In this document: positions 10,964 to 12,825 of the stretch, piece after piece | Position numbering within the stretch: position 1 is the first letter of the stretch | Layout of the letters: every line of letters begins with the position of its first letter | Assembly (NCBI GenBank): GCA_017853315.1 | Contig: JAFMJW010000007.1 | Coordinates: forward strand, 1 to 40,933 | Source of the DNA: Alphaproteobacteria bacterium | Lineage (GTDB): Bacteria; Desulfobacterota; Binatia; UBA12015 | Reading direction: 5' to 3' | Length of the DNA stretch: 40,933 bases | Position numbers and translations under genes: made by a program | Notes under the pieces: generated by a model | Databases searched by the model: none | What the model saw: only the letters and a program-made list of their open reading frames with translations | What the model was told of the DNA's origin: nothing

Positions 10964-11512
10964 TCAGCGGGCGCGCCGGAGCAGGAGCTCGAGGTAGCTC
11001 TCGGCGATGGGGGCGGCGTCCGCGAGCCCGAGCCGGCGCAGCGCGCCGTCGAGGGCCCGGCGTCCCGACGCGACGTCCTCGGCCGCGACCTCCACTTCGC
11101 AGAAGCGGCCGAGTCCCTCGACGTCGTCGATGCTCACGACGACGGCGTCGTCGGGGCCGGGCAGGCGCCACTCGACCCGCCGCTTCGCGACGGTCGCGAC
11201 GGCGCGAAACCCGAGTCGCTCGAAGAGCAGGGCCGCGGTGTCCCCGTCGGTCGCGAGCGCGAACTCGATCTCCTCGCGCGTCTTGCGCGGCGGATCGAGC
11301 TTCGGGCCCTTCCAGGTCACGCGCAGCTCGTCCCCGTCGTGCCGCAGGCGCAGCGCCTCGTCGGTCGCGGCGAAGTCGCGCGAGGGATGCGCGAGGTAGA
11401 CGTCCGATTGCAGGTGTTCCGGACCCGCGACGGCACCGAGCTCGGCCAGCCTCGCGAGCAGGCGCGCGTGGCGGTCGCCCTCGAGCGCGAGCTTGACCTC
11501 AGCCTCGAGCAA
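10964..11512 (-). CDS. CYTH-domain protein (class IV adenylate cyclase/triphosphatase-like)
   Basis: The 182-residue protein opens with the E3-x-E5-x-K7 signature of the CYTH triphosphate tunnel ('LEAEVKLAL') and keeps the charged strands 'LRLRHDGDELRVTWKGP', 'REEIEFALA', 'KRRVEWRL' and 'VSIDDVEGLGRFCEVEV'. CYTH proteins include CyaB-type adenylate cyclases, inorganic triphosphatases and thiamine triphosphatases. 'DDVEGLGRFCEVE' is typical of the CyaB-like group, but cyclase activity should not be assumed. It overlaps the 3' end of the upstream LeuD-like gene by 14 bases, implying translational coupling. Confidence 0.85.
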   Translation of the reverse strand: MLEAEVKLALEGDRHARLLARLAELGAVAGPEHLQSDVYLAHPSRDFAATDEALRLRHDGDELRVTWKGPKLDPPRKTREEIEFALATDGDTAALLFERLGFRAVATVAKRRVEWRLPGPDDAVVVSIDDVEGLGRFCEVEVAAEDVASGRRALDGALRRLGLADAAPIAESYLELLLRRAR

Positions 11513-11996
11513 GCAGCGCCTCCCGCAGCGCCGCGAGACGGTCCTCGCCCAGGTTGCGGATGGGAAAGCGGTCGCCCGAGCTCATGTTCACGACGCGCCC
11601 GCCCTCGAGGTCGACGCGAAGTCGCGCCCCGGTGTGGATGACCAGCGCCTCGTTCAGCTGCACGGCCGGCAGGCCGATGCGGTCGGCGGAGCGCTCGAAG
11701 GAGGGGTCGAACGAGTGCGCGACGACGGCGGCGATGCCCGCCTCCCGGAGCGCGCACGCGGCCGCGTCGGCGACCGCGCCGTGCCCGAATCCGCCGCCTC
11801 CGACCAGGAAGTCCCCCGCGGCGATCCGGTCGGCGAGCGTGGGGTCGATCGGGGAGAGGATCGGTCCGCCGCGCTCCCCGCCCGGGAGGATCAACTCCGA
11901 GGGGACGTCGAGCCCGAGCGCCCAGGCCGTGCCGACCAGGATCGGAAGGCGGACCTGCCAGCGCTCTCGCGCGGTCGACTCCTCGTCGGCGGCCAT
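11499..11996 (-). CDS. Degenerate aconitase-swivel (LeuD-like) protein
   Basis: This 165-residue protein aligns over its length with the small subunit of 3-isopropylmalate dehydratase: 'GTAWALGLDVPSELILPG' (usual DTD-x-I-x-P region), 'AGDFLVGGGGFGHG', 'ALREAGIAAVVAHSFDPSFE', 'RIGLPAV' and 'LRVDLEGGRVVNMSSGDRFPI'. The substrate-binding loop that is normally GCGSSREHA reads GHGAVADAA (71-79), and the DTD motif reads VPS (31-33), so the residues that hold isopropylmalate are missing. No large subunit is nearby. It is probably not a functional dehydratase; the role is unknown. The ATG at 11994-11996 is chosen by the domain start. Pairs with the CYTH gene. Confidence 0.75.
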   Translation of the reverse strand: MAADEESTARERWQVRLPILVGTAWALGLDVPSELILPGGERGGPILSPIDPTLADRIAAGDFLVGGGGFGHGAVADAAACALREAGIAAVVAHSFDPSFERSADRIGLPAVQLNEALVIHTGARLRVDLEGGRVVNMSSGDRFPIRNLGEDRLAALREALLARG

Positions 11997-12042: not shown

Positions 12043-12825
12043 ATGCGGATCCTCGTGTCCAACGACGACGGCATCCTCGCCCCGGGGATCGCGGCGCTCG
12101 CCGACGCGCTCGCGCAGGTGGCGGAGATCGACGTGGTGGCGCCGATGTCGGGGCAGAGCGGGGCGGCCCACGCGATCACGTTCATGACGCCGCTCATCAC
12201 CGAGCGGATCTCGGTCGGCGGGCGGCCCTTCGGCTGGGGAGTCGACGGGAGCCCGGCGGACTGCGTGAAGGTCGGAGTCCACGAGCTCTGCGAGGCGCGG
12301 CCCGACCTGGTCGTCTCGGGCATCAACGCCGGCTCGAACCTGGGCGTCGACGTGATCTACTCGGGCACGGTGGCGGCCGCCGTCGAGGCCGCGTTCATCG
12401 GGATTCCCTCGATCGCCTTCTCGCTCGAGGTCGGGGGCGGGTTCGATTTCGCGGGCGCGGGGCGCCACGCGCGCGAGATCGTGCTGCGTGCCGTCGAGCT
12501 CGGGATCAGCCCCGGCATGGTGCTGAACGTCAACATTCCGCGTCTCGACCGGGGCGAGCCGCGCGGCGTGCGCGTCGTGCCGCAGAGCACGGCTCCGTGG
12601 ACCGACAGCTACGATCGCAGGACCGACCCGCGGGGCCGCACCTACTTCTGGCTCGGCGACGCGGGAGGGCGGGCCGCCGAGGACGATCCGGACACGGACC
12701 TGATGGCGCTGCGCGCGGGCTACGTGACGATCACCCCGCTCCAGTACGACCTCACCCAGTACGCGCAGCTCGAGCACCTGCAGTCCTCGTGGGTCGCGGG
12801 CGGGTCGGGGCCGACGCGCCGCTGA
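12043..12825 (+). CDS. surE: 5'-nucleotidase SurE
   Basis: SurE is a metal-dependent phosphatase acting on nucleoside monophosphates and short polyphosphates. The 260-residue protein starts with the metal-binding 'ILVSNDDGILAPG' (D8, D9), has 'APMSGQSGAAHAIT' carrying the metal-ligating serine, and 'VVSGINAGSNLGVDVIYSGTVAAA' residues 93-116 with the conserved Asn. Length is typical. The AGGAG six or seven bases before ATG could be a ribosome site; it overlaps TAGGAG (12030-12035), which with TCGCGG (12007-12012) at 17 bases also fits the local promoter layout. Divergent from the LeuD-like gene. Confidence 0.95.
   Translation: MRILVSNDDGILAPGIAALADALAQVAEIDVVAPMSGQSGAAHAITFMTPLITERISVGGRPFGWGVDGSPADCVKVGVHELCEARPDLVVSGINAGSNLGVDVIYSGTVAAAVEAAFIGIPSIAFSLEVGGGFDFAGAGRHAREIVLRAVELGISPGMVLNVNIPRLDRGEPRGVRVVPQSTAPWTDSYDRRTDPRGRTYFWLGDAGGRAAEDDPDTDLMALRAGYVTITPLQYDLTQYAQLEHLQSSWVAGGSGPTRR

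Follow-up and report, generated by a model that had tools for sequence, protein, structure and literature searches.

An orphan LeuD-like swivel protein of Candidatus Binatia, probably reused outside the isopropylmalate isomerase

A stand-alone gene for a LeuD-like protein is found in the window, that is, the whole 40,933-nucleotide stretch of DNA analysed here. Its product is rather likely to be a paralog, specific to this lineage, of the isopropylmalate isomerase small subunit of short archaeal type, and to have left the isomerase and become a stand-alone swivel-fold protein. Reuse for another job is probable rather than decay. The fold has been retained and the catalytic and substrate loop lost; on this reading the active surface would have moved to the C-terminal hairpin, away from the former loop. 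The protein would illustrate clearly how an ancient subunit can part from its enzyme, the catalytic loop drifting and a new invariant motif arising elsewhere on the fold. No paper on such an orphan LeuD-like protein was found in the open-access literature.

Fold and sequence of the LeuD-like protein

The original prediction, made from the sequence, described an open frame of 165 residues that keeps the fold of the LeuD small subunit, with GHGAVADAA in place of the substrate loop GCGSSREHA and VPS in place of the DTD motif. The frame and both replacements are confirmed (Table 1), and the strand, missing from that description, is the minus strand. A comparison with LeuD and aconitase-C profiles had been proposed as a check. 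The frame passes Pfam Aconitase_C (PF00694) with 24.0 bits against a gathering cut-off of 22.8, a level under which some of its relatives score. Its top NCBI-family model is TIGR02087 (LEUD_arch; 68.7 bits, E 4.8e-19), with the cut-off of 108.95 missed, and TIGR02084 also stays below its threshold (55.5 bits against 245.85). A sequence search against solved structures matches LeuD 3vba with an E value of 4e-15. Given the Pfam, TIGR02087 and 3vba matches, the resemblance to LeuD, judged from sequence, is far above chance. The LeuD-like fold spans residues ~16-165, residues 1-15 forming a variable extension.

Table 1. Features of the LeuD-like gene and its neighbours in the window
Feature	Position	Strand	Basis or remark
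LeuD-like swivel protein, 165 aa	11499..11996	-	ATG start at 11996, TGA stop 11501-11499
Residues 31-33, VPS, at the position of the LeuD DTD motif	11898..11906	-	Sequence and joint alignment
Residues 71-79, GHGAVADAA, at the position of the LeuD substrate loop GCGSSREHA	11760..11786	-	Sequence and joint alignment
Arg127, same in 30/30 aligned family members	11616..11618	-	Joint alignment; Arg in 28% of LeuC-linked LeuDs
Residues 137-148, NMSSGDRFPIRN, motif gained by the family, in the C-terminal beta-hairpin; R143 and R147 never vary	11553..11588	-	
CYTH/CyaB-type gene, downstream of the LeuD-like gene, 14-nt overlap	10964..11512	-	TIGR00318 cyaB, 121 bits; keeps ExExK (MLEAEVK)
Divergent SurE homolog, 46 bp away from the LeuD-like start	12043..12825	+	Conserved neighbour in family f1

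An AlphaFold2 model built with ten relatives reaches a pLDDT of 88.5 and a pTM of 0.83. Its superposition on solved LeuD structures gives Z scores of 22.6 (2pkp), 21.6 (3vba) and 20.1 (1v7l) over 145-150 residues, and Foldseek retrieves 3vba with an E value of 2e-14. The predicted fold is thus that of the aconitase/LeuD swivel, as had been claimed; a fold unlike it, which would have spoken against the original prediction, was not obtained.

Comparison with known systems places the protein nearest to archaeal-type LeuD (TIGR02087; 3vba, 2pkp, 1v7l), with which it shares length, fold (Z 20-23), ~24-30% identity and a common core made of DPxF, GDxxVxG, GLP and the C-terminal beta-meander. It differs by the absence of DTD, of the GSSREH loop and of a linked LeuC, and by the acquired R127 and SSGDRxxIRN. 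The swivel domain of aconitase (domain 4) has the same fold (Z ~15), whereas the LeuD-like protein stands alone and lacks equivalents of Ser642, Ser643 and Arg644. The small subunit of aconitase X (UPF0107/DUF126; 7cnr, 2hi6) is likewise a small separate swivel protein (Z ~10), but LeuD is far closer, and a Pfam scan with E values up to 1 gives no DUF126 match for the frame. RraA-type proteins are swivel-like and act by binding; their broad arrangement is similar (Z 6.6-7.1, within the range of common arrangements), with low similarity and no sequence match. By its defining features the LeuD-like family lies outside LeuD, though it has the same fold.

A lost loop and an acquired motif in one lineage

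Among 148 searched genomes of the class, uncultured bacteria that are most likely Candidatus Binatia, ~37 hold a family member as called by score. Members occur in all 14 genomes of the window's own taxonomic family (f1), in 11 genomes of f5, six of f8 and three of f6, and in one each of f7, f13 and f15. Thirty-two homologs from these 7 families were read, every one of them without the serine-arginine loop; 30 enter the tree and the joint alignment. In a tree of 61 proteins, a single branch (support 99/97) separates the 30 family members from 31 LeuC-linked LeuDs, and the split remains at 99/97 after the addition of ordinary LeuDs from other classes of the phylum. The tree is unrooted, so that the direction of the loop change is inferred; loss in the LeuD-like family is the simple reading, since the GSSRE-bearing LeuD encoded beside LeuC is the widespread form.

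Spread beyond the class was considered and rejected. Scanned for the motif, 84,980 species genomes returned class members and one ordinary LeuD from a leu operon only, with patterns that would miss some members, for instance those of f8. Twelve high-scoring profile matches elsewhere in the phylum, whose sequences were inspected, are all ordinary LeuDs with GSSREHA, LeuC being present in the stretch for 10 of them. A viral or plasmid origin was considered and rejected: viral contigs hold no relative, there is no viral fold match, and the plasmid matches are ordinary LeuDs only, on two Peribacillus plasmids.

The joint alignment reveals what the family has given up. Conservation of T33, D34, S74, R76, E94 and N103 amounts to 77-94% among LeuC-linked LeuDs and is lost in the family; the second D of DTD is present in 94% of the former against 32% of the latter. 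The SSRE pattern is found in the substrate loop of 0/30 aligned members, and the loop differs even among sister species. It had been proposed that homologs with intact serine loops in the same gene position would refute the original prediction; all 14 such homologs (14/14) are without the serine-arginine loop. In aconitase this loop contains Ser642, the general base (PMC8184944), and in the small subunits GSSRE is the substrate-binding motif (PMC7308503). Since both functions sit in the lost loop, isomerase catalysis of the known kind appears unlikely from the sequence. Some members retain threonine or serine at the loop serine positions (e.g. GTSDD) and may conserve a residual chemistry.

What the family has acquired lies at the C-terminus, in the motif S-S-G-D-R-x-x-I-R-N, which in the model spans the hairpin that joins strands 134-137 and 143-145 as well as the first part of the last helix. 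No member lacks Arg127, Arg143 or Arg147; S139, G141, D142 and N148 are almost universal, f5 departing from the rest at D142 and N148. The pattern [ST][STAG][GS]xRxx[IVL]R[NDG] is present in 30/30 family members of the tree, from which it was itself derived, and in 0/43 ordinary LeuDs, which are independent of the derivation and beside 41 of which LeuC was seen. With the motif, automatic annotation has a simple test to tell LeuD-like proteins and true LeuD apart, and the residues for a first mutation are named.

Such conservation bears on the question of decay, as the original prediction had left the choice between a repurposed swivel domain and a degenerate paralog misannotated as LeuD. The lost catalytic loop and the weak scores of the family would suit a degenerate copy or pseudogene. 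Reading frames are, however, open in all members, and pairwise dN/dS is ~0.14-0.4, mostly lower across the C-terminal 45 codons, values from which the gene is judged to be in use under purifying selection. The family is old and lineage-specific, kept in 7 families of the class, neither a one-off nor a decaying copy, and it has gained an invariant motif. Degeneration, rejected on dN/dS and conservation, is therefore most improbable, and the repurposed domain is the alternative that stands.

Large subunits and the leuCD genes

The original prediction that no large subunit lies near is borne out. No LeuC is encoded near the LeuD-like gene in any family locus (stretches of mostly 6 kb per side, less at contig ends), whereas LeuC adjoins nearly every control LeuD in the loci inspected. 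Nor does the window's own assembly, a draft of 3.98 Mb in 398 contigs, yield a LeuC or an ordinary LeuD, its sole PF00330 match being a 911-aa open frame of aconitase. In the same assembly (G000), leuA and leuB are adjacent on contig C6, with no leuC or leuD in the assembly.

From the presence of leuA and leuB without leuC or another leuD, it might be supposed that the LeuD-like protein is the organism's sole LeuD, serving leucine synthesis with a diverged loop. The sister genomes speak against it: they carry the LeuD-like gene and, elsewhere, a separate bacterial-type leuC-leuD pair with GCGSSREHA, so that the LeuD-like protein is additional to ordinary LeuD. In the sister genome G001, the leuCD region has no counterpart in the window's assembly although the orphan region matches the window at ~78% over 8 kb. 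For this reason the absence of leuCD is probably a gap of the draft assembly; real loss is not favoured, and a role as sole LeuD has very little to recommend it.

The main rival to a stand-alone protein is a pseudo-subunit without a part in catalysis that would dock on LeuC of the same cell, or on a different aconitase-family large part from another locus, and would modulate or inhibit that partner. Fold and core are unchanged, nearly all genomes with the LeuD-like family contain LeuC, and small subunits can pair with heterologous large subunits, one large subunit being able to serve several small ones (PMC7308503). The partners seem ill matched, however: LeuC in f1 genomes is bacterial-type and the LeuD-like family archaeal type, no matching short-type LeuC was seen in the f1 genomes, and the family has lost, or varies at, the DTD motif, E94, R102 and N103, all of which LeuC-linked LeuDs conserve well. 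Docking of this kind is judged unlikely.

Less probable still is activity as the small subunit of a hydro-lyase not yet described, with a different loop chemistry and a large subunit encoded far away. Odd loops are indeed tolerated by LeuC-linked LeuDs of the same class (QSSGRAI, GHDHDHA), and the threonine or serine of some family loops would be compatible with such an activity. Within each LeuC-linked group, however, the odd loop is constant, whereas the family loop varies between close relatives, and most f1 genomes show no visible spare large subunit, holding just one aconitase and the LeuC already mentioned.

The LeuC-linked LeuDs of the class are themselves diverse. In five loci of family f2 (L058, L102, L105, L109, L110), one LeuC-LeuD pair lies close to a second; one LeuD per set carries the constant loop GQSSGRAIA and the other GCGSAREQA, against the usual GCGSSREHA. 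These f2 proteins, being LeuC-linked, are probably hydro-lyases for other substrates. LeuC-linked LeuDs with the loop GFGHDHDHA or GYGHDHDQA are found at L100:1576-2145 and L101:1424-2624, a set in which one LeuC-linked LeuD has an 11-residue loop insertion (GCSAACLDGLPGDPHLHALA).

Gene neighbourhood and putative function

The overlap with a CYTH-domain gene, noted in the original prediction, is confirmed and amounts to 14 nt. On the other side lies a divergent gene whose product we take to be SurE from its N-terminus, MRILVSNDDG. The divergent SurE gene flanks the LeuD-like gene in 14/14 f1 genomes and CYTH follows downstream in 13/14, the contig of the remaining genome stopping before the CYTH start; in f1, the LeuD-like protein is probably co-translated with the CYTH nucleotide enzyme. 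Conservation of the pair, which had been raised as a question, holds in f1 and fails in the other families, in whose loci no SurE or CYTH neighbour was found. As a general partner, CYTH was rejected: f5, f6, f7, f8, f13 and f15 have other neighbours, and a general explanation of function cannot rest on CYTH, the pair being kept only in f1.

Elsewhere, f8 shows a divergent DEAD-box helicase in the four loci checked and, in one locus, an M16 peptidase (Pfam). A family B DNA polymerase lies just upstream on the same strand in f6 (L049, L050, L054). In f5, a Hel308-like helicase (archaeal helicase domain 4) adjoins the gene in three loci by Pfam (L055, L057, L108); a DUF309 gene is also present, in L055 on the side opposite to the helicase. 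The neighbours are a flavoprotein in f13, a radical SAM protein in f7 and an antiporter in f15. Since neighbours change between families, the protein, not its genomic context, is the constant feature.

For the repurposed stand-alone protein, the putative new functional surface would be the C-terminal hairpin with Arg127, Arg143, Arg147 and Asn148, with a small anionic molecule or another protein as the possible binding partner. The protein would then act by binding, as a sensor, carrier or regulator, without dehydration or hydration. The original prediction spoke of a repurposed swivel domain with a new ligand; repurposing is supported, and the new ligand is putative. A more specific idea, judged unlikely, is that the arginine hairpin binds nucleotides, nucleic acid or enzymes acting on them; the family would then be a novel kind of binding protein with a swivel fold. 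It would fit the DEAD-box RNA helicase of f8, the Hel308-like helicase of f5, the family B DNA polymerase of f6 and the CYTH and SurE nucleotide enzymes of f1, but the link of several neighbours to nucleic acids is no more than a hint.

One locus from the same genus as the window (L064) belongs to a public record titled Klebsiella pneumoniae, apparently a mislabelled metagenome bin.
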